From positions 62,001 through 126,000 of the IMG/VR virus record IMGVR_UViG_3300044904_000300: DNA of 64,000 nucleotides; one strand, 5' to 3'. The position numbers were made by a program, and so were the translations under genes. Under the pieces are notes generated by a model, which saw only the letters and a program-made list of their open reading frames with translations, was not told where the DNA came from and ran no database searches. The stretch comes from a virus. Below, piece by piece: positions 6,701-63,610 of this stretch. Each line of letters opens with the position of its first letter. Within the stretch, counting starts at the first letter, position 1.

Positions 6701-7624
6701 CATATTGATGACCTCGGGATTGAGCAGGACAGCGTAAACCTCATCGCACCGGGTGCGGGGTATCTTGCTACGCTACAAACCGGAACCGTCAATACGGTTA
6801 CAGGGCTGGCCAACGTCTATGGAACGACTACGACGTTTGATACGAAACTCAACGTTGGGGATACGGTGATCGTCGGCGGCAACGTTGAGGTGATCGTCCA
6901 GTCTGTTGAAAACGCAGTCCACTTTACCGCGACGGTCGCGGTGGGCGCAACCAGGACAGCAAATGCGTGGTTCACCTATGGAACTGTCGACCTAGCGAAC
7001 AATACGCTCGCACTCACCATCGCGGGTGGAAACGGAACGGGAGCAGTCGCTCACGCGGTTGTTGGTCGGGATGGAGTGGTCAACACGGTTGTCGTGGACA
7101 CCGCAGGATATGGATACTCGGAAACACCAACATTCACTATCGCTGCGCCGACAACACCTGGTGGGTTTGATGGGTCGCTTCAGTTCTCTGCTGGCATTAC
7201 TTACAGCAGTGAGGTGGGGAACGACAACTCCGTAGAGACCACACGCTATATCACTCGTCCAGTCACGCTCGCGGACGGGTTTGAAGCACGGGATCTCAAA
7301 GTCTACTTCGATGCGTACCGACCGGACACCGCAGACTTCTACGTGTATTACAAAGTGCTTCCAGTCTCCGCGGCGGCTGATGCTCGCTTTGACGACCAGC
7401 CGTGGCGCTTGATGACGATGGTAACCGCGAATACCGTGGTCAGCGCAACATGGACCTCTTACCGGGAGTATGAGTTTGTGACGCCGACGGGGCAGGCACT
7501 CGCATCCAGCGATGATACGACTAACCAGTTCAAGGTGTTCGCGATCAAGGTAGTAATGGCGTCAAGCAATACCCCGGATGCTCCACGGGTCTCGAACTTC
7601 CGAGCAATAGCATTTGACGCATAA
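713..7624 (+). CDS. Giant tail/baseplate structural protein with DUF4815 N-terminus
   Basis: About 2303 residues. The N-terminus (residues about 10-60, with RPRYAVQSRELTQLQ) matches the DUF4815 family found in large tail proteins of T4-like marine phages. A glycine-rich linker near residue 1665 (GGGGGGASGPGEPGWGG) separates a long beta-rich N-terminal region from a C-terminal region that begins SDPLAETFLVD and continues with EIRTT...GYP, a pattern repeated in such phage tail proteins. The start is ATG 713, inside the 3' end of the endonuclease; the SD-like purine run AGCAGAAG lies upstream. Its place directly before fibre genes and the neck block suggests a baseplate or proximal fibre component. 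Function is inferred from family and context, not from a motif. Confidence 0.8.
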   Translation: MALSNSTTRIFRTTYFDDYYAQSNTDPNLFRGEDFDFNRILFRPRYAVQSRELTQLQTILQAQIEQLGSANLKHGQPVYGCEMAINNGVRAGKVQTTDNVAAFFSRTLDAGQKIESVDVPTTTASVRGYVAIDEGYTDNYLVFTYGSDAAFNPNDVVSIIGGTESATFSSDSDAFSDASVFSVAGGVFFISGFLVRFKPATIVLDHQSSAPDAVVGLLVSEEILDELDDVVGETLLDPANQNAPGAHRFRLSLALASYGLTVEVPTNFIQLAKVVKGVIQYTQTVSERYVKWSELNDLLARRTYDEAGNYMIKSFSPVIGDDPDAEDHFRLAVGAGKAYVHGWEVNKTTPTNLSIRKGRTTQNVDSQSIALQVGNYVRVRWVGAAVPGTYFCNTIAVDLHTVPSQQIAGANDATYGLSKIGTAKLRMLEAEDIPALADYQANSIFKLFFFDAQFDTVTGNCTSGSMDSNGAVYAAIAFANGVANVGNALLGASIVLGGASSPVSGSFTVNSYALTNATHANVGLLEPLPAIPNGNTTYRVLYQTKDIDAFAAHDNTATINASSYLANNFAFQADIDWVTGKVGGSPYGATIVEGMSQNSLIYELSNQFVVANTLTTATSSFDSWVPTDENATMDPASGSPTANITLTFTLGAQYKLPTSAAMTAEEAQRYFVFYDVTDDVDGQGQIIEVSDTSGAVTSRWISNVAVVASGSDYNINFKYHHSSSMGGVRTFLGFARAAVTGLAIRTKTLNAGNTTSLFSDTTGAAVAGQVEYYSLNTAPGFAYSLFVPDVYQLVKVLYKESNTAFDTSDLTTATDVTDQFTLDTGQRDNSYEYGRAIVNNGASYVIHPTGRLLFIFDWFEPAGRGYATVDSYGDILYDGIPSYTSTVTGTTVSLRDVLDFRPERSYQNILAKANTVFAAGDDYGDPAYLTSTSVPYLIPASDGVWNGSYQFYLGRMDTVALCYDGTFTINEGQDAVHPVAPKDDSADLPLFLLTIPPYTLVDANGKPTGVGLTAYDYKRYTMNDVGKIEDRVAHLEYYTALNSLETITTNQPEEDAAGNPRYKNGILVDSFQGGDVGDVASPNFTASIDSANCELRTGFRSFALSFSPDFAHSTTANIAIIGDMATIAYTTTPFVVQNLATTAISVNPFDISTFYGSISLSPAVDTWKDTEQLPAQVIDGGGPTQAWIDANMPSYTVWGEWDQTWSGVNASTAPRTFSGFANVVATLLNIGGATTTFQDTQVAANFARQGTTFEYTVTTQNESQGNKVVGTSIVHSVRARDLVFSGSGLKPDTNLYLFFAGTNISNYVQQATVLQLESIVAPGGAAVSLTGAPFIVGQTVYVQKAITGLTATTSAQANVAGTGTYYQYELSPGQLVHVVRVNDSFDAFVNSITSNTAMSLVTSANASFANAYIYTRTPVTIAAVSPWYDGTGNVVYNISVVRAKRDTAVDQAVPYVPVPGSLSITKLVNDGANTTSGAVLLTLPNGIFGTNALAGWTITGSRCPSGVVRGWNPSSGQIRLDNDAGVVPLGTAIRIVGGPGAGQLTYAVGDSYSANQTVNVGSLTGVVAGESIYSIGPLASAGFGEITSTSPRAGTCAGAFHMQEAQFPTGTSQVRLTDSATNGVDGTTLADAQYEASGLTTIQQETIISTRVITQSEIGVTDTAGTIGGGGGGASGPGEPGWGGRAGLIYSDPLAETFLVDKTIYPQGLFLADLDLCFATVPDQDIPVTIEIRTTVNGYPNNQEVVPCISASGRASVTLRRDQVNTTQAPNFDDPTAYTKITFPSLVYLAPGYEYAIVIRSDSDHYYVWTAEIGALVVGSEDRKVSKQPYAGSFFKSQNASTWTESPLQDLMFRLNKAVWSGTSATPQQGKLVIRGVPPSTNTWFDSFEFYPHDANFADVTACAYLLDIQVMDLTSNTSNGTTLRYSGFPNSWQETGARSFLQGYGPTTTQQIPSWSNNVLGTANTIDGQAFLNTWSADVAPYLDLQKMGVVCIQHHIDDLGIEQDSVNLIAPGAGYLATLQTGTVNTVTGLANVYGTTTTFDTKLNVGDTVIVGGNVEVIVQSVENAVHFTATVAVGATRTANAWFTYGTVDLANNTLALTIAGGNGTGAVAHAVVGRDGVVNTVVVDTAGYGYSETPTFTIAAPTTPGGFDGSLQFSAGITYSSEVGNDNSVETTRYITRPVTLADGFEARDLKVYFDAYRPDTADFYVYYKVLPVSAAADARFDDQPWRLMTMVTANTVVSATWTSYREYEFVTPTGQALASSDDTTNQFKVFAIKVVMASSNTPDAPRVSNFRAIAFDA

Positions 7625-7626
7625 CT

Positions 7627-7863
7627 ATGACACTTCCTCGTCGTATTCAAACGGATAACCCGTCTTTTGCGCGGGATACCTATTCCAGGGCGCTCCTCAA
7701 TACTGACACGAGCGCCTTGGAACGTCACCGTCGTAAGGTTACTAAAACCAGAACGACGACAGACGAACTGGTCACTCTTCGGGCCACGCAGCATCGACTT
7801 GAAGACCAAGTGCGCGAACTCACAGAGAAACTTGATCGTCTTTTGGACCTTGTGAAACGCTAA
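7627..7863 (+). CDS. Small protein with C-terminal coiled coil
   Basis: 78 residues, starting three bases after the DUF4815 gene and ending five bases before the fibre gene, so it is co-transcribed and probably translationally coupled. The last 30 residues (LRATQHRLEDQVRELTEKL and following) show a clear leucine heptad pattern predicting a coiled coil. The N-terminus is basic and polar. No family recognised. The position suggests a fibre-associated oligomeriser or chaperone, which is only inference. Confidence 0.6.
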   Translation: MTLPRRIQTDNPSFARDTYSRALLNTDTSALERHRRKVTKTRTTTDELVTLRATQHRLEDQVRELTEKLDRLLDLVKR

Positions 7864-7868
7864 ACTCC

Positions 7869-10844
7869 ATGCAGTATATTCCACCCACCCTTCCTATTGC
7901 GAACATCTCAGTCGCCAATACGACGCACGATCTTGTGGACCGGGTGCAAACGGTCGTGGACTACCTGAATGGGAACCCTATTGGGACGAGTGGAAATACT
8001 GAGACCTCAAACAACGCACTCCACCTGGGTGGCAAACTTGAAGGCGACCTTAACGTCAATAGCGCGATAACGGCCAACAGCGCCAATACTGCACTTACGG
8101 CCAACAACAGCACGTATGCGTTTGGGCTCTCACAGAACCAGTTGAACGTCAATAGCGCGAACACCGCGAACGATGCTGCATATCTCGGTGGCCACGCGGC
8201 CAACACCTATCTCTATCCCGTCTCAAATACTACTCCCGCAAATGGACAGACGCTCTATTGGAGTGCTGCGAATAGTAACTGGTACCCTGCGGACCCGTCC
8301 GGTAACGTAACTGCGCTTGACGCAAACAACGCGAACTACTTGAATACGCATTCCGAGGCGCAACTCAACGTCAACAGCGCGGTGACTGCGAACAGCGCGA
8401 ATACGGCCAACCTTGCAAACTACATTATTGCAAACACCGGGATTATCTCTAACGCTTATGGTGTGTTCGTCAACGCGGCTTACATCAATACCATCGCCGC
8501 CAATAGTGCTACAAATGCTCTGACTGCGAATAACAGCACCTATGCGTTCGGGTTGTCGCAAAACCAACTCAACGTCAATAGTGCTATCTCTGCGAACACC
8601 GCAAACAACAGCACCTATGCGTTTGGAAAGTCGGAAGCCGGGCTCAACGTCAATAGCGCAGTAACCGCCAACAGCGCCAATAGTGCGCTCACGGCTAATG
8701 ATAGCACCTATGCGTTTGGAAAGAGTGAGTCGGCCCTTAGCGTCAACGTAGCTCTCACCGCCAATAACAGCACCTATGCGTTTGGTAAGAGCGAAGCTGG
8801 GCTCAACGTCAATAGCGCATCGTCTGCTGTCACGGCCAACACCGCGAACAACAGCACCTATGCGTTCGGCAAAAGCGAAGCTGGGCTCAACGTCAATAGC
8901 GCAGTAACCGCCAACAGCGCCAACACCGCCAATAACAGCACCTATGCGTTCGGTAAGTCAGAGGGAGCACTTAACGTCAATAGTGCTGTGAGCGCCAACA
9001 CCTCAAATAACAGCAGTTACCTTGGAGGCTACGCCTCGTCTGCATTCGTGCGCCCCTTCACGGGGTCTCCGTCTGACGGGCAGGTTCTGACCTGGAACGG
9101 GTCGGGGAGCACATGGTTCCCGGGAGCCGGAGGTTCTGGCGCACCACATGCGATCCTCAGCAATACGCACACGGACGCAAACGTCGCAACGGCTCAAAAC
9201 GGCGACCTCATTATGGCCGAGGGAGGTTCAAGTAACCTCACGACGTATAGCACGACCTATACGTGGCTGTGGACATCTGGTGTGGAGAGTTGGACCGGAG
9301 TAACCGCAAATACGGGTGATGGGTGCGTGCAGATCGCGAATGCTGCGATTACAGGAGCAGGTACCGCACCAGCAAATGTCGCATATTCATGGACGTGGCC
9401 CGCAGGAACTGCAAATGGATGGGGTGGATGGGGAGCACTTTCGCTGGGTTTTGATGTTGGGTACCTGGACATCTCGGCGGGGCCCTTTGGTGTTCCCGAC
9501 GACACGGAGACTATTGATGGTGGCGCCTCTATTTCATTTGCGTGGACCGCGTTGGGTGTTCCCGGCGGTGCGAATGTTACGTCTGTTGCATTAGCGTTCA
9601 ACAGACAGCGTATTGCTTCACTACACCTTGATACACCGTCCTTTGGTTTCTATTTGGTGGACGGGTCAAACAATAACATTCTCACAAGTAATCTCGCACT
9701 TGGTGGATACTCCTGGGTTACCAACGCGACTGATGGTTCGCCTGTTCCTGTTGGTCCCTCAACAAACGCTGCTATTGGATCGTCGTATCAAGCCGCCGCT
9801 ACTACGGTCACGCTTCGTTTGGACGGAGAGGTAAGCAGTCACATAGCTAAAACAGACTGCATGTTGGACATTCAGTTCTCGAACGTCACGTTGATCGTGA
9901 ACTACACGACAAGTTCTGGCAACCTTTCCGGGAAGTATCTGGTCACTGCGGCCGGTCCGGTGATGGCGTGGACGGACTTGGGTGTGCCCGCAAACGCCTC
10001 TGTTACCGCGGTCAAACTCATAGGACTGGACCGTAAGGTCGGGTCCGCTAACGACATCGCCAATAACATCCTGACGCTTGGGATCTCTCCTGCGGGGAAC
10101 ACCACCGCAACAGTCCTAGCAGGCACGTCAAACCTAGCGAGCTATACGCTTCCCAACACCGCAGGGTCGTTCAGCACACTTTCGGCGGGAAGTAATACCG
10201 CGGTGTCGAGCCTCTATAGTAACTCCAGTTCATCGGTGCAGATGACTCTTGGACTGGATGTAATCTCCGGGTCCTCGGGTGGGGGCGTCATCATCGATGA
10301 GTTTAAGAACCTCGGACTGCTCATTTACTATGCACTTGGAACGACAGTCGGTGCGGTGTGGTCCCGTGTTCCTATCGGCACGAACGGACAGATCTTCACT
10401 AGCAACGGAACACTCGGTGGATGGACGACACTTTCCTATGTGGGCCCGTTCACAGGAACACCCGCAAACGCCCAAGTTCTGACCTGGAACGCAGCCGGAA
10501 GCACTTGGTATCCCGCAAACTCATCGGGGGGAACGACTACCCCGGTCGATGACGGGAACAGCGGAACCTCGATCACAATCAACTGGAGCACGGGGTCAAC
10601 GCACTACTTGAAGATGACCGGGAACTGCACCTTGGCGTTCTCAAATCCAACTGACGGGGGCCGCTATACGCTCCTCGCCAACTCGGGGGCGGGTGGTTTT
10701 GTGATGACGTGGCCGGCCAACGTGAAGTGGGGTCTTGGTGGACAGCCCCTCAACAGCCAGGTCACCAACGTCAACGACCTCTTTACGATGGTGTATCGCT
10801 CCAGCGCCAACGTCTACTTTATGAGCTACAACTTGGGGTATTAG
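7869..10844 (+). CDS. Tail fibre-like protein with STYAFG repeats
   Basis: 991 residues. Residues about 50-390 consist of some 11 short units of about 18-30 residues. Seven have the core NNSTYAFGKSEAGLNVNSA; others have YLGG variants, typical of fibrous phage tail proteins. Next come two copies of a beta-type module, each opening with AWT-LGVP--A-VT (about 9534-9910 and 9958-10340), and a C-terminal module (10543-10844) that is also the C-terminus of the protein at 15671. The signature PFTG-P--(G/N)A--LTWN occurs twice before module boundaries. Neighbours are the DUF4815 tail protein upstream and the adhesin-like array downstream. A fibre shaft with carbohydrate-binding heads is the most economical reading. 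Confidence 0.8.
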   Translation: MQYIPPTLPIANISVANTTHDLVDRVQTVVDYLNGNPIGTSGNTETSNNALHLGGKLEGDLNVNSAITANSANTALTANNSTYAFGLSQNQLNVNSANTANDAAYLGGHAANTYLYPVSNTTPANGQTLYWSAANSNWYPADPSGNVTALDANNANYLNTHSEAQLNVNSAVTANSANTANLANYIIANTGIISNAYGVFVNAAYINTIAANSATNALTANNSTYAFGLSQNQLNVNSAISANTANNSTYAFGKSEAGLNVNSAVTANSANSALTANDSTYAFGKSESALSVNVALTANNSTYAFGKSEAGLNVNSASSAVTANTANNSTYAFGKSEAGLNVNSAVTANSANTANNSTYAFGKSEGALNVNSAVSANTSNNSSYLGGYASSAFVRPFTGSPSDGQVLTWNGSGSTWFPGAGGSGAPHAILSNTHTDANVATAQNGDLIMAEGGSSNLTTYSTTYTWLWTSGVESWTGVTANTGDGCVQIANAAITGAGTAPANVAYSWTWPAGTANGWGGWGALSLGFDVGYLDISAGPFGVPDDTETIDGGASISFAWTALGVPGGANVTSVALAFNRQRIASLHLDTPSFGFYLVDGSNNNILTSNLALGGYSWVTNATDGSPVPVGPSTNAAIGSSYQAAATTVTLRLDGEVSSHIAKTDCMLDIQFSNVTLIVNYTTSSGNLSGKYLVTAAGPVMAWTDLGVPANASVTAVKLIGLDRKVGSANDIANNILTLGISPAGNTTATVLAGTSNLASYTLPNTAGSFSTLSAGSNTAVSSLYSNSSSSVQMTLGLDVISGSSGGGVIIDEFKNLGLLIYYALGTTVGAVWSRVPIGTNGQIFTSNGTLGGWTTLSYVGPFTGTPANAQVLTWNAAGSTWYPANSSGGTTTPVDDGNSGTSITINWSTGSTHYLKMTGNCTLAFSNPTDGGRYTLLANSGAGGFVMTWPANVKWGLGGQPLNSQVTNVNDLFTMVYRSSANVYFMSYNLGY
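8083..9016 (+). repeat. In-gene fibre repeats (STYAFG units)
   Basis: Seven near-identical copies of a DNA core reading AACAGCACCTATGCGTT(T/C)GG start near 8103, 8529, 8606, 8700, 8763, 8849 and 8933. A 41-base block is identical at 8640-8680 and 8883-8923. Such identity allows slippage or recombination that changes shaft length. Confidence 0.85.
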
Positions 10845-10845
10845 A

Positions 10846-11742
10846 ATGTCCTATACGATTAAAACAGCAGGGACATATCCCATCAATAATAACTCTACAA
10901 CATTTGCGGCCTGGGGGTCGCTCATTTCAAATGCGCTGGCTAACTGCGGATGGACGCAGGCCACCGGAGTCGGTACCCAGATTAATTGGAGCACCGTACC
11001 AGTTCCCAACACCGCAGTCCAGTTTCCTGGTTATGAGATTTGGCAAATGAATGATAGCTTGCAGAACACCGCACCCATCTATGTGAAGTTTGAATATGGG
11101 GGATACTCCGCGAACCCGACTATCCCTCGCATTCGTCTTACGCTTGGGGCTGGTGCAAACTCCTCGGGGAACATCACCGGGAACACCTCCTCTGCTTTGG
11201 ATATACAGGATTATACGTTTAGCACATCGTTGTGGCCGTCTTGGTTTTCCGGTGCAAACAACCGTTTTTGTGCTGCGATGTGGGCGGGAGGGGCGGCTGT
11301 TTCGTTGATGTTTACTATCGAACGCACCGTGGATGCCAACGGAACCCCAACAGGAACCGGAGCATTCGTCGCATCCTGGGTTTATAGCGCAGGAAATAAG
11401 CAAGTCGCCTGGACCCCCACAACAGGAAACACCACGGCCATCGAAACGTCATTTGGGTTGTTGATGCCCGATGTAAGTGGTGTCGTCTCGGGGTATACGC
11501 AGGGTGCTGGCCGAATAGGAACGCAACTTGCTTACTATCCGCTGTTTTTTTCCTATGGTCCGTTCTTCCCACCAGGAACGACACTCATGGGTTACTTCAG
11601 CGGAGAATTTACAACCGGAGTACCTTATACGCTTCCTGTTGGGAACACAACGATGACCTACATAGCACTAGGGAACTCATATTGCGCGAACGTCTCTATA
11701 CGGTCGGGTGGGAAATCCGCATTTTTGATGCGGTGGGAATAG
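10846..11742 (+). CDS. Adhesin-like paralogue 1 of 5
   Basis: 298 residues, first of five tandem paralogues. It shares with the others an N-terminal segment ANCGWTQATGVGTQINW, a core GYEIWQMNDSLQNTAPIY, a segment like IERTVDANGTPTGTG, and a C-terminus ending MRWE. There is no signal peptide or membrane segment; composition is Gly/Thr/Asn-rich, as in beta-structured receptor-binding proteins. It starts two bases after the fibre gene stop. The family is not recognised by name. Position after the fibre shaft and the variable middle and C-terminal regions suggest a tip adhesin, by inference. Confidence 0.7.
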   Translation: MSYTIKTAGTYPINNNSTTFAAWGSLISNALANCGWTQATGVGTQINWSTVPVPNTAVQFPGYEIWQMNDSLQNTAPIYVKFEYGGYSANPTIPRIRLTLGAGANSSGNITGNTSSALDIQDYTFSTSLWPSWFSGANNRFCAAMWAGGAAVSLMFTIERTVDANGTPTGTGAFVASWVYSAGNKQVAWTPTTGNTTAIETSFGLLMPDVSGVVSGYTQGAGRIGTQLAYYPLFFSYGPFFPPGTTLMGYFSGEFTTGVPYTLPVGNTTMTYIALGNSYCANVSIRSGGKSAFLMRWE

Positions 11743-11743
11743 T

Positions 11744-12622
11744 ATGAGCTATACTTTGTTAACAACCGCGGCGCCAAATAACAGCACGAATGCGCTATTT
11801 GAAGCATGGGGGCAGAGGATCTCGAACACTCTTGCTAACTGTGGATGGGTGCAGGCCACCGGAGTAGGCACGCAGATCAACTGGGCGACTGCTCCGACAC
11901 CGAATGCCACGAACCAGTCTATTGGCTATGAAATCTGGCAGATGAATGATAGCTTGCAGAACACCACACCTATCTACTTGAAGATCGAATACGGGTCTGG
12001 TGGTGGCGCAGCACAACCGGGGTTATGGGTGACGTTGGGCGCCGGCGCAAACTCCTCGGGGAACATTACAGGAAACACATCGACACGGGTTCAAGCGTCC
12101 CTCACGGGAAGTTCGGCAACGGTGTATAACTGCTACTTCTCTGGTGCGAATAACCGTTTTGCGATGGCGATGTATGGCAGCTCGTATGCTTTGATAGTCG
12201 GTGTAGAGCGCACCCTTGACGCAAATGGGACCCCAACATCAACGGGTGCGACTCTCATGTATGGGGACCAAACAACGATACACAACCAGGTGTCGTGGAC
12301 CCCCGCAGCGGGAAACACCACAGCATGGGAAACCTCATGGGGGTTCCTCACACCAGATTCCACGGTGAATAGCGGAGCACCTGGTGGTGAGCCAAGTGCT
12401 ACGCAGTTAGCGTATTATCCGTGCTTCTTCACCGTCGGAGGACCGATGGCCCAGGGTTCGCTATTCCCATGTTATTTCAACGGAGATACCGTCACGGGAA
12501 CCGCGGTTACTCTTCCATTTGGAAACACCACGATGACGTTTATGCCACTTGGAAACACGTTCTTCTATAGTGCATCCGTGCGGGGCACTTATAAAACGGC
12601 TCTCATGATGAGATGGGACTAG
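11744..12622 (+). CDS. Adhesin-like paralogue 2 of 5
   Basis: 292 residues, beginning two bases after paralogue 1. It keeps the shared blocks (ANCGWVQATGVGTQINW, GYEIWQMNDSLQNTTPIY, VERTLDANGTPTSTG, end MMRWD). Its DNA at 11922-11987 is identical over 66 bases to paralogue 4 (13720-13785), which is too conserved for simple divergence and suggests recent gene conversion. The GAGANSSGNITGNTS block is shared with paralogue 1. Function inferred as a variable receptor-binding component. Confidence 0.7.
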   Translation: MSYTLLTTAAPNNSTNALFEAWGQRISNTLANCGWVQATGVGTQINWATAPTPNATNQSIGYEIWQMNDSLQNTTPIYLKIEYGSGGGAAQPGLWVTLGAGANSSGNITGNTSTRVQASLTGSSATVYNCYFSGANNRFAMAMYGSSYALIVGVERTLDANGTPTSTGATLMYGDQTTIHNQVSWTPAAGNTTAWETSWGFLTPDSTVNSGAPGGEPSATQLAYYPCFFTVGGPMAQGSLFPCYFNGDTVTGTAVTLPFGNTTMTFMPLGNTFFYSASVRGTYKTALMMRWD

Positions 12623-12623
12623 T

Positions 12624-13535
12624 ATGAGCTACACACTTACTGCAAACATGTCGTGTAACGTGACGACGAATACCCAGTTTCGGGCTTGGGGCAGCATTAT
12701 CTCTTACGCGATGGCCAACTCGGGATGGGTGCTGACCGCAAACAGCCTCGATTGGTCATCTGCTCCGGCACCAAACGTGGTTTCGCAGACCGTCGGGTGG
12801 GAGGTCTGGCGCATGAATGACGCGATGCAGAACACCGTTCCTGTCTATCTCTACATCGGGTATGGGTCAACGGCGGCCGCTAACGTCCGTCCTGCGCTGT
12901 ATATGCGCGTTGGTTCGGGGGTCAATACTTCGTTCCTTACAGCGGGTGTCGGTCCTCTGACGGGATTTCTGGGCCCGCAGAGTGGAAACATGCAGTTGCA
13001 GCCCGGGGCAACCAGCACAAATACGACGATGCAGTCTCTGTTCTGCGGGGATACAGGGCGTATGGCGTTCGGGTTATGGTGTCGTGGATCATCCACAAGC
13101 ACCTATGTGTGTTTCTTCTCTATTGAACGCACATGCGATGCGAACGGGAACCCGACAAGCGATGGAGTGTTTGTTATCGACCGTTCGACGGTTTCCCCTT
13201 ACTATAACCAACTCATGTGGCATCCCACGATAGGGCAGATACTATGGGAACCCTCGACCACATCGTTGGCGATACTGAACCCTGCAGCCGGGGGAAGCAC
13301 GTTGGGGTCGAATACCTCGGTCTATCCCGTCTACTTCACGCGAGGTGGCGGTCCATTTCTTCAACCGGGGCTTGGTGTGTTTGCGTATTTTCACCCGGAG
13401 TTTTCAGCAGGGACCGCAAATACATTCTCGGTCTATGGGAGCAACCACACGTTTATGCCCTTGGGGAATACCGCGTGGTATGGTGGGACCGCGCGAAGTA
13501 ATAATAGCATCACTTATATGATGCGGTGGGAATAA
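12624..13535 (+). CDS. Adhesin-like paralogue 3 of 5
   Basis: 303 residues and the most divergent of the first three. The shared core is altered to GWEVWRMNDAMQNTVPVYLY, while IERTCDANGNPTSDG and the terminal MMRWE are retained. It contains an inserted stretch around residues 100-135 (GPLTGFLGPQSG and following). It starts two bases after paralogue 2. The ancestor was probably the same gene, with relaxed constraint or a different ligand here. Confidence 0.7.
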   Translation: MSYTLTANMSCNVTTNTQFRAWGSIISYAMANSGWVLTANSLDWSSAPAPNVVSQTVGWEVWRMNDAMQNTVPVYLYIGYGSTAAANVRPALYMRVGSGVNTSFLTAGVGPLTGFLGPQSGNMQLQPGATSTNTTMQSLFCGDTGRMAFGLWCRGSSTSTYVCFFSIERTCDANGNPTSDGVFVIDRSTVSPYYNQLMWHPTIGQILWEPSTTSLAILNPAAGGSTLGSNTSVYPVYFTRGGGPFLQPGLGVFAYFHPEFSAGTANTFSVYGSNHTFMPLGNTAWYGGTARSNNSITYMMRWE

Positions 13536-13538
13536 CAC

Positions 13539-14408
13539 ATGGCTTCAACTCTTCTTTTTGCAAACAGCTACCCCGAGAACACCGGGAATACGACGTTGCT
13601 TTGTCTGTATGGCGGCGCCATATCGAATGCGTTTGCGAACGCAGGATGGTTGCGGTCGGCCCAGGGCGGACAAATTGACTGGACCTCCGTAACGGGGAAC
13701 GCTTCTATGAGCGCGAACTTTGGCTATGAAATCTGGCAGATGAATGATAGCTTGCAGAACACCACACCTATCTACTTGAAGATCGCGTATCGTAGCGGCG
13801 CCGCCCAGGCCAATACTCCCGCATTTCAGTTCCAGATCGGGAGTGGAACGGATGGAGCAGGCAACCTTATTGGCGTGACGAGCGTGGTGGTCGTCGCGAA
13901 CACGCAGTTGGCAAACCCTACCGCGCAGCCGTGCTTCTTTGTGGGAACTTCTAGTCGTCTTGCGATGGCGTTATGGACGACAGCCACACCCGATACCGGA
14001 TGTATGTTCTTCTCCATCGAACGCACCCATGACGCCGGGGGAAACGATACTGTTGCGGGTGCGATGATGTCGTGTTATGCGTATAATAACAACAGTTTAG
14101 GCTCGCAAATATACTGGTCACCATTAGGAACTCCGGGTAACGCTACAGAGAACTATGGAGTCTTTGCGACGACACTCACATCGACAGGAAACGTCCTGCA
14201 AGTGTATCCGCAATACTATTGCGATGGGCTCTTTACGAACCCGTCGCTCAACATCATTTGGGCGGTAACAGGCACGGTTACACCCTATGCTCCGGTCTCT
14301 ATTCCATTCTATGGTGCGACCCGTCAGTATTTACCGACATTCATCATCAATTCGGCCTCCTACCGAACGGGTACCCTCAACCTGCAACCGATGATCCTTT
14401 GGGAGTAA
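13539..14408 (+). CDS. Adhesin-like paralogue 4 of 5
   Basis: 289 residues, starting with the MASTLLFANS type of N-terminus that is shared with paralogue 5 but not 1-3. The core GYEIWQMNDSLQNTTPIYLK is identical to that of paralogue 2 at DNA level over 66 bases. IERTHDAGGNDT groups it with paralogue 5 (IERTHDNYGNDT), and it ends MILWE. The mosaic of a paralogue-5-like frame with a paralogue-2-like core is direct evidence of recombination within the array. Confidence 0.7.
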   Translation: MASTLLFANSYPENTGNTTLLCLYGGAISNAFANAGWLRSAQGGQIDWTSVTGNASMSANFGYEIWQMNDSLQNTTPIYLKIAYRSGAAQANTPAFQFQIGSGTDGAGNLIGVTSVVVVANTQLANPTAQPCFFVGTSSRLAMALWTTATPDTGCMFFSIERTHDAGGNDTVAGAMMSCYAYNNNSLGSQIYWSPLGTPGNATENYGVFATTLTSTGNVLQVYPQYYCDGLFTNPSLNIIWAVTGTVTPYAPVSIPFYGATRQYLPTFIINSASYRTGTLNLQPMILWE

Positions 14409-14409
14409 C

Positions 14410-15297
14410 ATGGCTTCACTTCTTCTTTCCGGCGCAAGCCTCAGCCCTAACGCTACGGACAATACGACTTGTCGCGCCACCGGAACTGCATACTCAAATG
14501 CCTTCGCAAACGCAGGGTGGATACAAGCTACCGGTGTCGGCACGCAAATCAACTGGGGCACGGTGACGGCGAACGGAACAGCCGGGTCCAACCTGGGATA
14601 CGAAATCTGGCACATGAATGATACGCTGCAGAACACCGCGCCCATCTTTCTCAAGATCGAATATGGATGTCCCACTGGCGGCAGCTTCGGGGGATGGATC
14701 ACTATAGGACAGGGAGCAGATAGTGGGGGAAACATTACAGGATTTAGTTTGCCTCGGTACCCTTTCGGGGGTATGGGGTTCAGCCCGTGGGCGCCAACCC
14801 CTGTGTTCTTCAGCGGAAACTCCAATAGACTCGCTATTGGTTGGAGTTACCCGGGAGTGTCGTCAAATACTGGTTCATACGTGTGGAGTATCGAACGCAC
14901 GCACGATAACTATGGAAACGACACCGCAGATGGGTTTTACTTCCAGGAAATCGGTTCGTTTAACACCTCCTACTGCACACAACGCTATGTGAGCTTTAGT
15001 GCGGGCCCCGGGCCAGCGGAAGGAACCACCGGAGTGTTTATGCCCGCGGCGTCTCAGTCTGGGTTAGGTCCTAAGTTCCTCTGGTACCCTATCTGGTTTA
15101 ATAACGGGGGTATGTACCTTCCCGCGCCCTCACTTATGCTTACCTGCGGGTGGTCCGCGCAATTTGCCGTGCATGTGCCGGTTACGCTTACGCACTTTGG
15201 TCAACCACACACATATTTGCCTCTCTATTGCTATGGACAAACAAATCGTTCGGGGCAAACCGCAAGTGCAACTCGCGCCATGATGTTATGGGAGTAA
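14410..15297 (+). CDS. Adhesin-like paralogue 5 of 5
   Basis: 295 residues, last member of the array. It has a MASLLLSGAS start, IQATGVGTQINWGTV, GYEIWHMNDTLQNTAPIF, IERTHDNYGNDT and the terminal MMLWE. It begins one base after the previous stop. The central region (WSYPGVSSNTGSYVW and following) differs from all other copies. Same inferred role as the others: an alternative or additional receptor-binding subunit. Confidence 0.7.
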   Translation: MASLLLSGASLSPNATDNTTCRATGTAYSNAFANAGWIQATGVGTQINWGTVTANGTAGSNLGYEIWHMNDTLQNTAPIFLKIEYGCPTGGSFGGWITIGQGADSGGNITGFSLPRYPFGGMGFSPWAPTPVFFSGNSNRLAIGWSYPGVSSNTGSYVWSIERTHDNYGNDTADGFYFQEIGSFNTSYCTQRYVSFSAGPGPAEGTTGVFMPAASQSGLGPKFLWYPIWFNNGGMYLPAPSLMLTCGWSAQFAVHVPVTLTHFGQPHTYLPLYCYGQTNRSGQTASATRAMMLWE

Positions 15298-15301
15298 CGC
15301 T

Positions 15302-15616
15302 ATGGCGATCAACATCAACACCACACCGTCTCAGTTCTCAGGGATTACTTCATTCCCGGCGCCCTCGGTAGTTTCATTTCCGCCTGTAGGAAACGCTGCA
15401 CCCATTCAAATCGCAGGTATATGGAGCCCCGTAAATGCTCCGGTGGGCGACCAACAAATCTATGTCCCTGTCGCGAAGGACCGGATCACCAAGTTCGTTA
15501 TAGGCTTGGGATACGCAGTACCTGGAAGCAGCGGGGTGCAGGTCGCTGCGACGGTCCCAAACTCTAATGCTCTTGCGGAGCGGTACCCGATGATGCCTCC
15601 GTCACTCTTGCCCTAA
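15302..15616 (+). CDS. Small putative virion protein
   Basis: 104 residues, four bases after the adhesin array, rich in Pro, Val and Ala with beta-strand propensity (IQIAGIWSPVNAPVGDQQIYVPV). No recognised family. Its TAA stop at 15614-15616 is also the start of the TAAATA late promoter for the next gene. It may be a small fibre-attachment or tip component; this is a guess from position. Confidence 0.6.
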   Translation: MAININTTPSQFSGITSFPAPSVVSFPPVGNAAPIQIAGIWSPVNAPVGDQQIYVPVAKDRITKFVIGLGYAVPGSSGVQVAATVPNSNALAERYPMMPPSLLP

Positions 15617-15619
15617 ATA
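15613..15619 (+). promoter_or_regulatory. Late promoter (CTAAATA)
   Basis: CTAAATA overlapping the stop of the upstream gene. It would give an untranslated leader of about 46 bases before ATG 15671. Confidence 0.6.
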
Positions 15620-15670
15620 CTCATAGGTGTTTCCAACCGGCAAACCTAACAATACGCGAAAGTAGCTCTT

Positions 15671-17386
15671 ATGGCCTTTGTCAATCTCACGCCGACCTCG
15701 ACATTCACCCAGTGGTATACCTTCACGAACGACATTGGAACGCTCCTCAATGATCAGGTCCTTGCAAACGGTGTGGTGGCGTTCGGGTCCTTTACACTCG
15801 ACCCAACGGGAAACATCAACCTGTGCAATACGTTCTATGCGAATTCCGCGTCGGGTGTCGTCAATGGAAACTTTAGCGTTATCGGGGTTGGTAACACTGT
15901 TTTCTTTGGAAACAACTTCCTGGTTGTCGCTAACACCATCGTCCTCAACCCCGTCACCAGCATCCTCGTCAACACCGCACTCACCGTCAACGCTACCGCA
16001 GCGTTCCTGGCAAACATCACCGCGGTCAACATCGCTTCGTCGGGGACCATCTCTGCTGCAGCACTGCGAGCAGATGGAAACGTCACCGCCAATAACGGGA
16101 CGTTGGTGGCGCGGCAAGTCTCGTTCACCACAAACGGCGCGGTCGTCAATAGCACATTTTCGAGCAACCAGAACGACTACACGACAACGGGACTCGATGA
16201 CGCAGCCGTCTGGTACGCAAATCCCACAGCGGACGTGGTGCTCACGGGGCTACAAGGACATAGCGCAGTTAGCGCAGCAGCGGATGGCGCACGAATGCTC
16301 TTCCTGCAGAACGTCTCCAGCACCAAGAAGATCGTGCTCACACCCGCGAACGGGTCCTCATCCGCGGTCAATCAGTTTGTCGCCAGCGGAGACGTGACCG
16401 TTCTTCCTAATACGACGGTCCTGCTCATCTACACGAAGTCAACCTCGCGGTGGGAAGTCGTCGGGGGGAGTGCGGCGGGAACCTCGGGGTCCTTTACAGA
16501 CTTGACGATTACCGGTGCGTTGGGTGTTGGTGGAGTCGCGACGTTCTCCGCGAACCTTGTAGCGATCCCCCTGTATGTCAACCAGGCGACGGGCCGAGTG
16601 GGGATTGGGTCAGCTACGCCGGGGTATCCTCTTGACGTTGTAGGAAACGCAAACTTCCAAAGTGTCGTATTCGTGAGCGACCTCCGAGCAACGAAACTCT
16701 CCGTCACCAGCAACGTTGCGTTTGCGAACATCGCCTTTGCGGCCAACGGCGTCACGATCTTTTCAAACTACATCACCGTCAACGGGTCCGCGGTGTCTTT
16801 CATCCAGAACCTTGAAGCGGGAACGATACTCAGCGATGCGGGTATCACCGCAACGACCTCGGTGGCGGGTGCATCGGGAGCGTTCGCGGGAGCAGTCACC
16901 GCTAATAGTATGACTGCAAACACGCTCTATGCCAACCTGGTGAGCGCCAACACCGGGACCTTTGGGTCTTTGGGTGTGGTTTCCGCAAGCAACGCGGTCT
17001 TCTCGCGCATCGGTGTGGGTGGCGCGGTTGATGCGAACGCGATAGCCAAGTTTGTGGGTCAGTATTTCTCGCCCCTTGTCGCTGCGGGAAGCACCGGAAC
17101 GACGAAAACCCTGGACTGGAATAACGGAAACGAACAGTATGCGACGATGACGGGGTCCTGTACCTTTACATTCTCCAACCCTGTTCCTGGTGGCCGGTAT
17201 GTGGTTCTCCTCAATACGGGCGCGGGAAGTTTCACTGCGACATGGCCGAGCACCGTGCGGTGGCCTGGTGGAAGTGCACCAACGCTCACGACCGCATCGG
17301 GAAAACTTGATCTCTTTACATTTGTCTGGAACGATACACTCAGTCTCTACTTTGGCAATTATAGCCAGAACTACTCAGCGAGCTAA
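15671..17386 (+). CDS. Tail fibre-like protein sharing a C-terminal module
   Basis: 571 residues, rich in Asn, Val, Ala, Thr and Ser with repeating FANGV/ANTIV-type beta segments, as in phage fibre proteins. The central part (VGIGSATPGYPLDVVGNANF) resembles the repeats preceding fibre and endosialidase-type tails. The last about 108 residues (from 17062: TLDWNNGNEQYATMTGSCTF ... GGRYVVLL-TGAGSF) are homologous to the C-terminus of the 991-residue fibre at 7869. It has its own late promoter at 15613 and no close upstream SD; GCTCTT precedes the ATG. Confidence 0.75.
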   Translation: MAFVNLTPTSTFTQWYTFTNDIGTLLNDQVLANGVVAFGSFTLDPTGNINLCNTFYANSASGVVNGNFSVIGVGNTVFFGNNFLVVANTIVLNPVTSILVNTALTVNATAAFLANITAVNIASSGTISAAALRADGNVTANNGTLVARQVSFTTNGAVVNSTFSSNQNDYTTTGLDDAAVWYANPTADVVLTGLQGHSAVSAAADGARMLFLQNVSSTKKIVLTPANGSSSAVNQFVASGDVTVLPNTTVLLIYTKSTSRWEVVGGSAAGTSGSFTDLTITGALGVGGVATFSANLVAIPLYVNQATGRVGIGSATPGYPLDVVGNANFQSVVFVSDLRATKLSVTSNVAFANIAFAANGVTIFSNYITVNGSAVSFIQNLEAGTILSDAGITATTSVAGASGAFAGAVTANSMTANTLYANLVSANTGTFGSLGVVSASNAVFSRIGVGGAVDANAIAKFVGQYFSPLVAAGSTGTTKTLDWNNGNEQYATMTGSCTFTFSNPVPGGRYVVLLNTGAGSFTATWPSTVRWPGGSAPTLTTASGKLDLFTFVWNDTLSLYFGNYSQNYSAS

Positions 17387-17391
17387 ACACT

Positions 17392-17970
17392 ATGCCGACT
17401 GTAACGAAAACGTGGACGTTTGCCAGTAGCATCGAGGGATGGACGGGCAGCTCGTGGGGCTGGAATGTCGATGGAATTGAAAGTAACGATTCCTTCGGGT
17501 CCTATGATCAGATAACCAACGAGTATCCACTAATCAGCCCTGCTGCGACTTGGCGAGACTGGGGTGTGCCGACAAACGCCACCGCGGTCACAGGAATCGA
17601 TATCCTTCATGGAAGCCGCAAGCGGGTGTCGTATGGTAACCTACAGGAATGGGGCGCGGGATTCCAAATTTTTACTGCAGGGTCCTGGCCGACGAGTCCG
17701 GTTTCAGTAACGGGTTCTCCTTTCCAGTTCGGGGCTATTAGTTTGCCGCACATAGGCTACGATAGTGCGTATGTTGATGCCGGAGCCGGCGGACTACCGA
17801 TTGGCGCAGCGTATCAGTCGCCCACGACCTCTGTGCAGCTCTACTTCCAGCTTGAGGTGACGAACAAGGTTACAAAAACCGTCGCGTGGGATGTCTTCTT
17901 CAATAACTTTACGATAGAACTGACCTATACGATTCCTTACACGTTCCCGGCGCTCACGGTGGCTCCATAA
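17392..17970 (+). CDS. Free-standing beta-module protein (fibre accessory)
   Basis: 192 residues. It corresponds to a single copy of the module found twice inside the 991-residue fibre: the opening ATWRDWGVPTNATAVTGID aligns with AWT-LGVP--A-VT, and the closing AAYQSPTTSVQLYFQLEVTN aligns with SYQAAATTVTLRLDGEV. The N-terminus (TWTFASSIEGWTGSSWGW) is aromatic-rich, as in carbohydrate-binding domains. It lies between a fibre gene and gene 13. The role is probably glycan binding or virion decoration; not proven. Confidence 0.65.
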   Translation: MPTVTKTWTFASSIEGWTGSSWGWNVDGIESNDSFGSYDQITNEYPLISPAATWRDWGVPTNATAVTGIDILHGSRKRVSYGNLQEWGAGFQIFTAGSWPTSPVSVTGSPFQFGAISLPHIGYDSAYVDAGAGGLPIGAAYQSPTTSVQLYFQLEVTNKVTKTVAWDVFFNNFTIELTYTIPYTFPALTVAP

Positions 17971-59823: not shown

Positions 59824-60790
59824 AGCGCGCCCGGGACAGAGGCTAAGACTGGACTCTGGCAATAAGTTAGAGGGATTCAGATGGGCAGAGAGTGTGCCGA
59901 GGACTGGCAAGGTCCCCGGTGGGGACCTGACTATAGTGGAGGGAAGTGGAGAGGGGTGGGGAGCGAGAGCGGGCAGCGCGGCCCTAGGCGCAAGAATGCC
60001 TTGCGGGCAAACGAATAGGCGCAAGAAGGGATATGAGAGGAATGGGTAAGGAAGGCTGGAGTTTTGGGGCCTGGGCCAAAGATGATGAGAAGGGACATGA
60101 AGGGACATGGGGTTTTTGGATTCGGCTAAGCGCCCCGACGAAGGCGAAACCTCATGGCACCTTAAGGTATAACAGGTATAAGCTATGGCCTAGGCCTCCT
60201 CGCGCGCCCCGAAACTTTGGCGTTCGGCAAGTGGCGATTTCGTGGTGTGTGTTTAAGAGTATTAATATAACTCGATATAACTTCCATAACACTTCATAAC
60301 ACTTCGCAGCACTTCGAAAAACTTCGTCGTTCGCAAGGCCGCACAGAGCACGGGCTAACACTTACCGAAATTGAAACTCGCACAACGTTTGAAGTATTCT
60401 GTGTGTAGTCTCGTTCAGGTGTTAATATAAGTTCTATAAAATTTCGACATGTGCATTCCACCAGTTGTGCGACCGCCAAAGTCTGGTAGAGTTTATGGCC
60501 TTCATGGCCCGGGGCCCCGGGGCGGGGGGCTGCAGCCCGGAGCCTAGGCCCTGTGCGGCATTTTCTTGTGTCAAGTTTTGAGGGTGTGCATTAATAATGA
60601 ACGCCTCACGCCTTCAGAGACCTAATGAAAACTCTAATGTTTTTACATGGTGCGGAAACTTGCCGAGCATACCAAAAATCAGGCAAAATGCTAATGTTTT
60701 CGGCAGCGTAAGAAAAGCGAAAGTCGATCCCTGTAACCTGTTGCGTTTATTGGTGTGCTAAAATAGGACACTTTAAGGGGCAGAATTCAG
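59824..60790. repeat. Repeat-rich noncoding region between divergent genes
   Basis: About 1 kb without a credible gene. It contains an 8-bp hairpin AGGTCCCC-GGT-GGGGACCT (59910-59928), TAGGCGCAAGAA twice (59985, 60016), tandem AGGGACATG (60091-60110), phased ATAACACTTC-type units every ten bases (about 60267-60325), and a GC-rich stretch full of palindromes (60497-60560). Candidate origin or control region. Confidence 0.6.
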
Positions 60791-60819
60791 TAGACAAGCG
60801 GGGGCCATGAGCGTATAAT
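60791..60819 (+). promoter_or_regulatory. Sigma-70 type promoter of the CobT-like gene
   Basis: TAGACA at 60791, 17-base spacer, TATAAT at 60814-60819, six bases to ATG 60826: the +1 is the start codon. The 13 bases ATGAGCGTATAAT recur at 63792. Confidence 0.8.
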
Positions 60820-60825
60820 AGAATC

Positions 60826-63327
60826 ATGAAGTCGAGCACTGCTCAAGTCACTAGTATGTTGGATCTGTTCAACGATTCGAAGCGTGCGGTGGCGAACCTG
60901 ATGGCGCGTGAAAACATCACCGTCCAGGTGATTGACGGGCTCGACACCGCGAAGTTCTCGCCGGAACTTCGAATCCTTCAAGTGCCGAATTGGACCGGTC
61001 TGACCGTGGAGCAGTGCGACCTTCTGATGTCGCATGAAATCGGTCACGGGCTCTTTACTTCGCGTACCGCCGGCAAGGGTCTGAAGCCTGGACTGTTCTC
61101 GTACCTGAACATCATCGAAGATGCTCGCATCGAGCGCCGCATGAAGGGCGCGTTCCCTGGTCTCGCCCCGACGTTCTTCAAGGGCTATCGCGAATTTCAC
61201 ACCAACGGCCCGATCCTGAAGGGGACCAACACTGCGTTGATCAACCCCAAGACCGGTGAACAGGTCGCGATTGCTTCCATGAAGCTCATCGACCGTATCA
61301 ACCTCCACTATAAGATCGGCGCGTTCGCGACGGTCCCGTTTACCGCCGAAGAGCGTGTGTGGCTGTCGCGCATCGATAAGGCGACCTCGACTGAGGATTG
61401 CCTGACTATCGCCCGCGAGCTGCACAAACTCGCGAAGGAACGGGACACGAAGGAACAACAGCAGAACCCCTCGAACCAGCCGAACCCCTCGAAGGGGCCC
61501 AAGCAGGAAGAGACCGAAGAGTCGGATTCGGATAACTCGCAGGACCAGGACGCCAGCGATGGTGAGAGCCAGGACGGCGACGAAGACGAATCGGACGACC
61601 AGAACGGTGCGGGCGACACGTCGGACGAAGAAGACGAAGACGAAAAAGACGGCGAAGGCGCTGGCGACGAGGACGAAGACGAAAAAGACGCCGATGGTGG
61701 AAACTCTGCCGACGGCGAATCTGACGAAAACGACGAAGACGAATCGGACGAAGCCAAGAGCAAGAGCGATGGCGACAACCCGCATGGTCAGGACCAGCAG
61801 AAGGACGCGTCGAACGCGGCCGGTGCTAACGATGACCCGAGTGCGGATACTGACGACCAGACGCAGGAAGGGCTGAAGAACATCGCCGCGAAAGCGGGTA
61901 CGAGTGTTGTGCAACATCTTCTCTATCCGGTGCTCAACGATGAGGTCATGAAGGATCGAATCGTTATGGCGCGCGATTTCGCTGAAAAAGCGCACAAAAC
62001 CCTCGCCGCGAATGGCGTAGCCGCGTCGGAACTTGAGGCGCTCGAAGGCATTTGGAATGATCAGTTTCTTATGACCGCGAAGCATATGGCGCTGGAGTTC
62101 GAACGCCGTAAGAATGCCAAGTGCCTCGCGAACGTCAAGACCGCGAAGTCGGGGAAGCTCGACCTGACGAAGCTCTCGCAGTATCGCTGGACCGAGGACC
62201 TCTTCAAGCGTTCCATGACCGTGCCGAACGGCAAGTCGCATGGCATCGTCATGATGATCGACGGTTCGGGCAGTATGTCGTCGCAGTTCGCTGCCGTCAT
62301 CGACCAGACGCTGCTCTTCGCGGTGTTCGCCTTCCAGGTGAATATCCCGTTTGAAGCTTACATGTTCTCGGACGCTGCTGCGCAGGATGCGAATGGTAAC
62401 CCCATCCGCTTCTCGTTTGTGTCGCAGGGGCTGAATACGTTCACACTCGGCGAGTCGGGCCGCCTGATTGGCCTCGTGAATACGACCACGGACCGTGCGG
62501 GTTTCAAGCGCCAGATTCGTGCGCTGCTTGCTGTGAAGACCGCGTATGACCGCAAAGCTAACGTGTCGCAGGAACTGTCGGGCGCTGTCCATCAGATTCC
62601 CGATGCGGCGCTGTGCGGCACGCCGTTGTTTACGGGCATGATGATTGCCGAGCGTATTGTCGCCCGCATGAAAAATCAGCAGAAGCTCGATAAGACGACC
62701 TTCATCGTCATCACCGATGGCGAGGACACGAACCGCCTGTGGTTCAAGACGAACACGCCTGACCCGTATGCGTATGCACGCCGCGCTGGTTACACCAGCC
62801 TCGACAGCCCGTTCGTCGTGCGCGATGCAGTCACGAAGAAGAATCTCTCGTTCGTGCAGACCGACACGTATTATGGTGCGACCATGCCGCAGAACGGGGT
62901 GCTGACTATGCTCCTCGACGTCATGAAGCTTCGCCATGATACGCGCACCGTGTATATCTACATGCAGGAAGATCGCAGCCAGTATTACTACTCGTGGCAG
63001 AAGCCCAAGCGCGTGACGTATCGGACCGATGGGTTCGACTATCTCATCCGTGCGGGGAAGCAGGAAGCTGCGAAGAGGATCGAGCCGACGACGATCACCG
63101 AGGCGCTCCGCGCTGATGGTCAGTATGTGCTGCCGTCGGACATCGCTGTGGCGGACCTCGCGATCATCCTGCCTGTGGGTAGCGTGACGCTGACGGAAGA
63201 CGAATTCAAGAAGCTCGATACTGCCGACCTCACGCAGAAGAAGATCGCTGCGGAGTTCACCAAGAGCATGGTGAAGGCACAAGCGAATCGCAAGTTCGTC
63301 AACAGCGTGGTGCCTCACCTCGCGTAA
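60826..63327 (+). CDS. CobT-like protein: HExxH peptidase-like domain plus VWA domain
   Basis: 833 residues. The N-terminal domain has a gluzincin-type motif LLMSHEIGHGLFTS (H70, E71, H74) and a downstream NIIEDARIERRMKG with the expected third ligand. Residues about 215-345 are an extreme Asp/Glu/Ser linker. The C-terminal half is a von Willebrand A domain with MIDAS DGSGSMSS near residue 477 and ITDGEDTNR further on. This architecture matches CobT-like cobaltochelatase subunits and related VWA proteins that pair with AAA+ (CobS/MoxR) ATPases; CobS is common in cyanomyoviruses. Predicted role: metal-dependent or chaperone-like remodelling, with an ATPase partner outside the window. The transcript is leaderless by prediction. 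Confidence 0.85.
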   Translation: MKSSTAQVTSMLDLFNDSKRAVANLMARENITVQVIDGLDTAKFSPELRILQVPNWTGLTVEQCDLLMSHEIGHGLFTSRTAGKGLKPGLFSYLNIIEDARIERRMKGAFPGLAPTFFKGYREFHTNGPILKGTNTALINPKTGEQVAIASMKLIDRINLHYKIGAFATVPFTAEERVWLSRIDKATSTEDCLTIARELHKLAKERDTKEQQQNPSNQPNPSKGPKQEETEESDSDNSQDQDASDGESQDGDEDESDDQNGAGDTSDEEDEDEKDGEGAGDEDEDEKDADGGNSADGESDENDEDESDEAKSKSDGDNPHGQDQQKDASNAAGANDDPSADTDDQTQEGLKNIAAKAGTSVVQHLLYPVLNDEVMKDRIVMARDFAEKAHKTLAANGVAASELEALEGIWNDQFLMTAKHMALEFERRKNAKCLANVKTAKSGKLDLTKLSQYRWTEDLFKRSMTVPNGKSHGIVMMIDGSGSMSSQFAAVIDQTLLFAVFAFQVNIPFEAYMFSDAAAQDANGNPIRFSFVSQGLNTFTLGESGRLIGLVNTTTDRAGFKRQIRALLAVKTAYDRKANVSQELSGAVHQIPDAALCGTPLFTGMMIAERIVARMKNQQKLDKTTFIVITDGEDTNRLWFKTNTPDPYAYARRAGYTSLDSPFVVRDAVTKKNLSFVQTDTYYGATMPQNGVLTMLLDVMKLRHDTRTVYIYMQEDRSQYYYSWQKPKRVTYRTDGFDYLIRAGKQEAAKRIEPTTITEALRADGQYVLPSDIAVADLAIILPVGSVTLTEDEFKKLDTADLTQKKIAAEFTKSMVKAQANRKFVNSVVPHLA

Positions 63328-63349
63328 TTTGGAAGGACTGAGAGAGAAC

Positions 63350-63514
63350 ATGGGAAACCCTGCTAGTGAAACGCTTCGAATGCTGCCGAGTGCCCCCACG
63401 GGTAACACCGCGCATATCGGACGCATCGAGTCCATTATCACCTCGTTGGTGATGCGAATTGCGGACCTTGAAGGTCGCCTTTCGAAGCTAGAACAGAAGG
63501 TGGAGAAGATATAG
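63350..63514 (+). CDS. Small coiled-coil protein
   Basis: 54 residues from ATG 63350 (a TTG seven codons upstream is possible). The C-terminal half MRIADLEGRLSKLEQKVEKI is a strong heptad coiled coil. The stop is followed by a 297-base regulatory region. It lies 22 bases after the CobT-like gene, so it is probably co-transcribed. Function unknown. Confidence 0.55.
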   Translation: MGNPASETLRMLPSAPTGNTAHIGRIESIITSLVMRIADLEGRLSKLEQKVEKI

Positions 63515-63565
63515 CGAAACCCAAAAGGGGAGGCAACCCCAATAAACTGCCGACTTTCATATACG

Positions 63566-63610
63566 AAGGGGTCAGGACTGGGTAGGAACGACAAACCCGA
63601 CTGACCCCTT
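63566..63610 (+). terminator. Large stem-loop (terminator-like)
   Basis: AAGGGGTCAG (63566-63575) pairs with CTGACCCCTT (63601-63610), extended by GGGT/ACCC inside. Followed by AGTGTTTATC, not a clean T-run. It closes the CobT-like operon or acts as an attenuator for the next gene. Confidence 0.6.

Follow-up and report, generated by a model that had tools for sequence, protein, structure and literature searches.

The array and its genes

The window analysed here, a stretch of 64,000 nucleotides (nt) from a virus (positions 62,001 to 126,000 of the IMG/VR record IMGVR_UViG_3300044904_000300), harbours five intact plus-strand open reading frames (ORFs) that lie head to tail at 10846-15297 and encode paralogous, adhesin-like proteins of 289-303 amino acids (aa; Table 1). 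The recognition of five such paralogues in an initial annotation, made from the sequence alone, agrees with the ORFs, with an alignment over the whole length and with a search of the complete 135,821-base record, in which copy 2 as the query recovered exactly the five copies (E 3e-197 to 1e-32). None of them contains an internal stop. The end-to-end alignment has 39 invariant columns and its strongest block at about residues 60-85; copies 2, 3, 4 and 5 are 53, 37, 32 and 37% identical to copy 1. The genes are nearly contiguous, as had been described with gaps of one to four bases, the exact gaps between the copies being 1, 1, 3 and 1 nt; the following gene begins 4 nt past copy 5. The common MRWE/MLWE ending proposed for them is a conserved W-E or W-D terminus that is somewhat more varied (MRWE, MRWD, MRWE, MILWE and MMLWE in copies 1-5). 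The divergence, which had been placed in the middle and C-terminal parts, is concentrated C-terminally, with a mean pairwise identity over 59 family members of 0.18 at residues 171-260 versus 0.57 at residues 59-85.

A TGGGA motif is found a few nucleotides upstream of copies 2-5 and of the 104-aa gene behind the array, and the full GGTGGGA precedes copies 2 and 4. The motif is Shine-Dalgarno (SD)-like and provides plausible ribosome-binding sites for the array genes. Together with the tight spacing, it suggests that these genes are co-expressed. It overlaps the codons of the W-E/W-D ending of the preceding gene (window 11730-15301). This ending may thus be under double constraint, its codons also forming the SD-like sequence before the next start.

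Table 1. Features of the array region (window coordinates; paired values in brackets are those of the tree nodes, from the 59-row tree unless stated otherwise)
Feature	Position	Strand	Remarks
Array copy 1	10846..11742	+	298 aa; nearest relative copy 2 (53%); pairs with copy 2 (100/94)
Array copy 2	11744..12622	+	292 aa; predicted JBD30 gp47-like fold
Array copy 3	12624..13535	+	303 aa; tree partner L007 copy 2 (92/87; 85/84 in 20-row tree)
Array copy 4	13539..14408	+	289 aa; predicted JBD30 gp47-like fold; tree partner L007 copy 3 (96/82; 89/81 in 20-row tree)
Array copy 5	14410..15297	+	295 aa; tree partner L007 copy 4 (94/77; not resolved in 20-row tree)
Recombination tract, copy 2	11922..11987	+	66 nt, identical to 13720-13785 in copy 4
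Recombination tract, copy 4	13720..13785	+	66 nt, identical to 11922-11987 in copy 2
Tail-fibre gene directly upstream	7869..10844	+	991 aa; phrog_7760 and phrog_9017 (tail fiber) in C-terminal part; 99-nt repeats
Small gene directly downstream	15302..15616	+	104 aa; probable companion; 39% identity to 127-aa gene in the same place in L007
Second tail-fibre gene, closing the cassette	15671..17386	+	571 aa; phrog_9017 (tail fiber), E 5e-10, C-terminal part

Distribution of the protein family

The five copies have no usable match in Pfam or PHROGs at E<=1, and no enzyme family was found for them in the Pfam scan. When 43 family members were compared with NCBIfam, no match was obtained, to enzyme families or to others, and one of the 43 weakly matches an unannotated PHROG. 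A search of the PDB by sequence returned nothing for the family. Among 50,697 phage records, copy 2 matches a single one, that of Tunturiibacter phage Tunturi_5, in four places. These are gp30-gp33, four tandem genes annotated as "hypothetical" behind two annotated tail fiber genes. A profile of the window family, which gives four matches in Tunturi_5, found none in the records of Mendera, Atu_ph07, G and FoX6 (0/4). A scan of species genomes contributed three family loci, in Sanguibacter, in Demequina and in an acidobacterial metagenome-assembled genome.

In total, the family comprises 65 ORFs in 45 loci once duplicates are set aside. This set leaves out 17 loci, namely five of the phage's own genome (L001-L005), eleven refetched contigs and L011, whose family ORF agrees with that of L010 in position, length and score. 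The distinct loci, to which scans of viral contigs and species genomes contributed, number 42: one copy is present in 32 of them, two in six, three in one, four in two, and five in the window only. These counts are lower bounds, as no locus extends more than 10 kb beyond the match and some contigs stop close to it.

The genes upstream of the family members were inspected at nine loci (ten proteins). The directly upstream gene matches a tail fibre in six of them (L007, L021, L028, L037, L059 and L061), and Pfam collagen repeats occur in four of these fibre genes (L021, L028, L059 and L061). The upstream gene has no tail-fibre match in L010 and matches only unnamed PHROGs in L031; in L043, where the directly upstream gene lay outside the scan, the next-but-one gene matches an internal virion protein.

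Predicted fold

Structures of two copies were modelled with AlphaFold2, from input alignments from which L006, a locus of the phage collection, had been excluded. The model of copy 2 (25 sequences) reached a predicted local distance difference test score (pLDDT) of 84.5 and a predicted template modelling score (pTM) of 0.86; that of copy 4 (43 sequences), the copy with the most divergent C-terminal part, reached 89.2 and 0.90. In a Foldseek search with copy 2, the sole PDB match at E<=0.001 was chain K of 8rk3, the baseplate of phage JBD30 (E 5.8e-5). VIA-align superimposed this chain on copy 2 over 251 residues (Z 15.7, root-mean-square deviation, rmsd, 4.3) and on copy 4 over 250 residues (Z 16.7, rmsd 3.7), with the next PDB entries at Z 3.8 and Z 4.1, respectively. 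Since the chain spans residues 2-318, it represents gp47 (318 aa) and not gp48 (307 aa). The gp47 fold is thus predicted for copies 2 and 4 from their models and for copies 1, 3 and 5 via their sequence homology to copy 2. As no link between the window family and gp47 or gp48 emerged from sequence profiles, it is this fold that is claimed for the array proteins, and not membership of the gp47 family.

JBD30 gp47 and gp48 are homologues encoded by adjacent genes. Each of the three lateral tail fibres of JBD30 consists of three gp47-gp48 heterodimers, whose two proteins resemble each other in fold; binding of the arm to the type IV pilus was concluded from a 26 Å reconstruction and predicted contacts (PMC11445458). 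Fold matches of copy 2 among predicted viral proteins include those of KL1, AH2 and MAR10 and gp371 of Bacillus phage G (BFVD, E 1.1e-4). Sequence similarity to gp47 is seen as well in the records of KL1, AH2 and MAR10, and the gp47 profile finds phage G; a profile link between the window family and gp371-373 of phage G was sought and not found.

The structure prediction that the initial annotation had proposed as a check, with an unrelated fold as the outcome that would have spoken against it, thus yielded a predicted fold related to that of a tail-fibre arm protein. The description of the genes as adhesin-like gains from this, as copies 2 and 4 are modelled with the fold of the pilus-contacting JBD30 protein and the relatives lie behind tail-fibre genes at most of the loci inspected. 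The authors of the JBD30 structure class gp47 in the nitrilase superfamily (PMC11445458), which favours a view of the array products as structural or enzymatic tail proteins that have no receptor role, for instance decoration proteins or a surface hydrolase. We consider this unlikely, for the comparisons of the five copies with Pfam and of 43 family members with NCBIfam gave no enzyme family, and the hypervariability of the C-terminal part suits recognition better than catalysis.

Duplication history and copy order

A family tree was calculated from 59 rows, for which L022, L027, L051 and L052, full or near duplicates of rows that were kept, had also been removed. The copies of Tunturi_5 (100/100), L016 (100/97), L019 (100/100) and L050 (100/99) each form a clade of their own, and L008 and L033 form one together (100/100); the pairs of L013 and L028 were not resolved. 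Several multi-copy phages have genes in clades of their own, and tandem duplication must therefore have occurred repeatedly.

The array of the related contig L007, which has four copies, behaves differently with respect to the window. Its copies 1, 2, 3 and 4 pair in order with the window copies (1+2), 3, 4 and 5 in the 59-row tree. In a tree of 20 rows, forcing either array into one clade was rejected (p-AU, the P-value of the approximately unbiased test, 1.6e-6 and 2.5e-5); the groups tested are the natural ones, yet they were tested after the first tree had been seen. The in-order pairing and the rejection of the one-clade trees indicate that the copies predate the split between the window phage and L007. 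When C-terminal parts were analysed separately, the pairing was clearly supported for positions 1-3, modestly for position 5 and not for position 4. The neck genes of the two phages are 76% identical, and the adhesins are 36-47% identical to their partners.

Exchange between copies

Copies 2 and 4 share a sharply bounded exact tract of 66 nt, although protein identity between them is 31% in the alignment used for the tract analysis (40% pairwise) and the same codon is used at only 44 of 102 shared residues. In random redraws of their codons, 0 of 1000 reached this length (mean 19.4, maximum 39). A second case is found in L007, where an N-terminal stretch of copies 3 and 4 contains 5 differences in 120 nt and an exact run of 56 nt, which was likewise not reached in 1000 redraws (maximum 32). 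Because exact tracts of this kind lie far beyond the simulations, recombination between copies is regarded as real. Both tracts sit in the conserved N-terminal half. These two events made the conserved part more uniform and brought no reshuffling of the variable one.

The initial annotation had offered a reservoir for switching host range as one explanation of the array, in which mainly one copy would be used and the others would serve as recombination donors. That DNA is exchanged between copies, twice beyond all simulations, is the point in its favour. The exchange, however, affected the conserved half and not the variable C-terminal part. All copies are intact, closely spaced and provided with plausible ribosome-binding sites, and the machinery for switching is not visible: as regards a diversity-generating retroelement, the 135.8-kb record, which is possibly incomplete, has no match to reverse transcriptase (PF00078; control matches in 4 of 14 genomes), and as regards an invertible fibre or adhesin switch, no pair of inverted repeats of >=20 nt (seed 12) was found at 7600-17500. 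A reservoir would also have no need of the fixed order that is kept with the diverged L007, across lineages that have been apart for long enough that synonymous codons look saturated. A switching reservoir is therefore poorly supported and seems improbable to us.

A proposed multi-subunit attachment arm

The reading favoured here, at about even confidence, is that the five products, of the gp47 fold, are structural proteins of the virion tail that act in adhesion, most likely as distinct subunits of one attachment arm. A heteromeric arm is preferred because the specialised copies keep a conserved order, an arm of two paralogues has a precedent, and a fibre gene is adjacent. JBD30-type arms are encoded by adjacent paralogous genes, and the window likewise has five paralogues in tandem; three tandem gp47-type genes in phage G, the gp47-type genes of the pilus phages DLP1 and DLP2 and the virion proteins of AXL1 also count for this reading. 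The set expanded via tandem duplication, to between one and five copies across phages, after which the copies would have specialised by position. The five subunits would be made together and assembled side by side, like gp47 and gp48 of JBD30, into an arm carried by, or located beside, the tail fibre that the preceding gene encodes. The common assembly interface may lie in the conserved N-terminal half, and there chiefly in residues 59-85; local DNA exchange occasionally homogenises this half. Contact with the host would then fall to surfaces of the variable C-terminal half, with a pilus or a comparable surface filament as a plausible target, or else a different receptor.

A more specific version can be put forward only tentatively. 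The contractile, T4-like phage of the window would possess an ordered five-part arm that grips pili, where the arm of the siphophage JBD30 repeats a unit of two. How many kinds of subunit it contains would be set by the number of tandem genes, each position would be conserved over long periods, and gene conversion would keep the joint compatible while the outer halves diverge.

Several observations weigh against the arm. The structure models cover copies 2 and 4, and with copy 4 Foldseek found no PDB match at E<=0.001, so that the link to gp47 rests on predicted models. Between the window family and the gp47/gp48 families, hhalign gave probabilities of 0.1, 0.5 and 0.3%, in a comparison whose positive controls reached 97.5% (gp47-gp48) and 95.2% (gp47-phage G). 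The pairing of copies 4 and 5 with copies 3 and 4 of L007 rests mainly on the N-terminal parts, and that of copy 5 with L007 copy 4 was not resolved in the 20-row tree. JBD30 arms attach to distal tail and upper baseplate proteins, and in a T4-like myovirus the attachment must differ. Finally, a family member can work without a paralogue, as the single-copy loci (32/42) indicate.

These single-copy relatives, whose upstream neighbour is usually a fibre or collagen-like gene, speak most strongly against generalising the arm, and they make separate tip adhesins a serious rival, though a clearly less probable one. Each copy would then sit alone on a fibre tip and recognise a different receptor, and the virion would be multi-specific, the other explanation offered in the initial annotation. 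The high variability of the C-terminal half fits this well, and a precedent is known from phage CBA120, whose four tailspikes of different specificities belong to one branched complex (PMC8825819). The same phage shows that the premise of the initial annotation, one to three receptor-binding genes per phage, was too strict (PMC7506556, PMC8825819). Interchangeable adhesins, however, would not need the positional identity that is kept with L007, and the one solved protein of the gp47 fold works in a chain of two paralogues. An arm of specialised subunits hence remains the preferred interpretation.

The fibre cassette and its surroundings

The array and the small gene behind it are enclosed by two tail-fibre genes (Table 1). 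The upstream one contains nine overlapping copies of its 99-nt repeat at window 7988-9007, possibly a fibre shaft of variable length. Tunturi_5 has a 105-aa gene in the same place as the 104-aa gene, with an identity of only 21%. Further downstream follow the genes for neck, sheath stabiliser, terminase, sheath, portal, scaffold and major head protein. The latter is 55-57% identical to proteins of T4-like phages (best 10 of 2494 matching records; their grouping as T4-like is our own reading). These head, neck and sheath genes and the head-protein identity identify the window phage as a T4-like myovirus.

Two fibre genes likewise flank the place before the neck genes in G007, G015 and G018, three contigs from related phages (G007 and G015 are near-duplicates). 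When four of these fibre genes were aligned at their N-termini with the two of the window, they showed a common overall pattern, with 23-45% identity to the first. Other genes lie between them, including a radical S-adenosylmethionine (radical-SAM) enzyme in G018 and methyltransferase-domain proteins; the stretch inspected was the whole slot after the wedge-like gene in G018 and ~13.7 kb before the neck gene in G007 and G015. Since other genes fill the same slot in related phages, the array is, by this comparison of gene content, one filling of a variable fibre cassette. No family member was found in the 19 contigs searched, out of 36 loci with related major capsid proteins, which is a weak negative as most of these contigs are fragments.

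In the related phages, this fibre cassette (L130:2371-6313, L131:6332-10357, L132:6392-10417) encodes small proteins with terminal His-Asp-rich repeats, close to which lie methyltransferase-domain proteins, as well as a radical-SAM enzyme (L130:3700-4983, PF04055 E 4e-16). Such cassette genes possibly serve the enzymatic modification of tail proteins. L130 also has a 181-aa ORF (272-814) behind its wedge-like gene. Within the window, a homing-endonuclease-like gene (61-729, phrog_314) adjoins the start of a 2326-aa baseplate-wedge-like gene, and at 60787-63594 a minus-strand ORF of 935 aa and a plus-strand ORF of 833 aa overlap almost completely.

Comparison with known systems

The analysis provides a predicted fold and a testable role for a protein family that has no name in Pfam, PHROGs or NCBIfam and whose members come from viral contigs, from three contigs of bacterial genomes and from an acidobacterial soil phage available as an isolate. 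The analysis would extend the fold of the JBD30 arm beyond its own sequence family and to multi-copy arrays of three (phage G), four (Tunturi_5) and five genes (window). Co-assembly of the copies would mean that a phage arm can consist of several specialised paralogues, with consequences for how phages grip surface filaments and why such gene arrays persist. The available parts of the literature on Tunturi_5, on relatives of JBD30 gp47/gp48 and on tandem paralogous receptor-binding genes contain no description of such arrays.

Arms of the JBD30 type have several relatives. Genes of the gp47 type were found in DLP1 and DLP2, the receptor of which is the type IV pilus (PMC6024842). In the pilus-dependent Pamexvirus AXL1, gp37 and gp38 follow the tape measure gp36 and are present in virions with 39 and 43 peptide-spectrum matches (PMC9206674); from their position and from AAT-1 of the same genus, they are probably the equivalents of gp47 and gp48. 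An arm of gp47/gp48-like proteins has already been proposed for phage Lydia (PMC11946847). The order of tape measure, gp47 and next gene is kept at nine of ten gp47-type loci, the tenth (L063) having no annotation.

The array resembles gp47/gp48 of JBD30 (PDB 8rk3, Casadabanvirus) in its fold over ~250 residues and in consisting of adjacent paralogous genes for proteins of ~300 aa. It differs in having no detectable sequence similarity to them and in comprising five genes instead of two. In the siphophage JBD30, the gene pair separates the tape measure gene from the distal tail genes, whereas in the T4-like phage of the window the array is flanked by fibre genes. Bacillus phage G carries gp371-gp373 (L085:9965-12568), three tandem arm proteins of the gp47 type that are annotated without a function. 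Like the array, they are tandem paralogues (280-290 aa) followed by a small gene (96 aa), and gp371 matches the fold of copy 2, but they belong to the gp47 sequence family and not to that of the window.

Tunturi_5 gp30-gp33 are true members of the window family, arranged in tandem behind two tail-fibre genes and followed by the 105-aa gene. The best of them is 27% identical to copy 2, and their separate clade marks an array that arose on its own. The branched tailspikes of CBA120 (Ackermannviridae) are similar in principle, since neighbouring adhesin genes there combine common N-terminal assembly parts with divergent receptor-binding parts. They are, however, enzymes with N-terminal assembly and anchor domains, whereas the array encodes small proteins of another fold.

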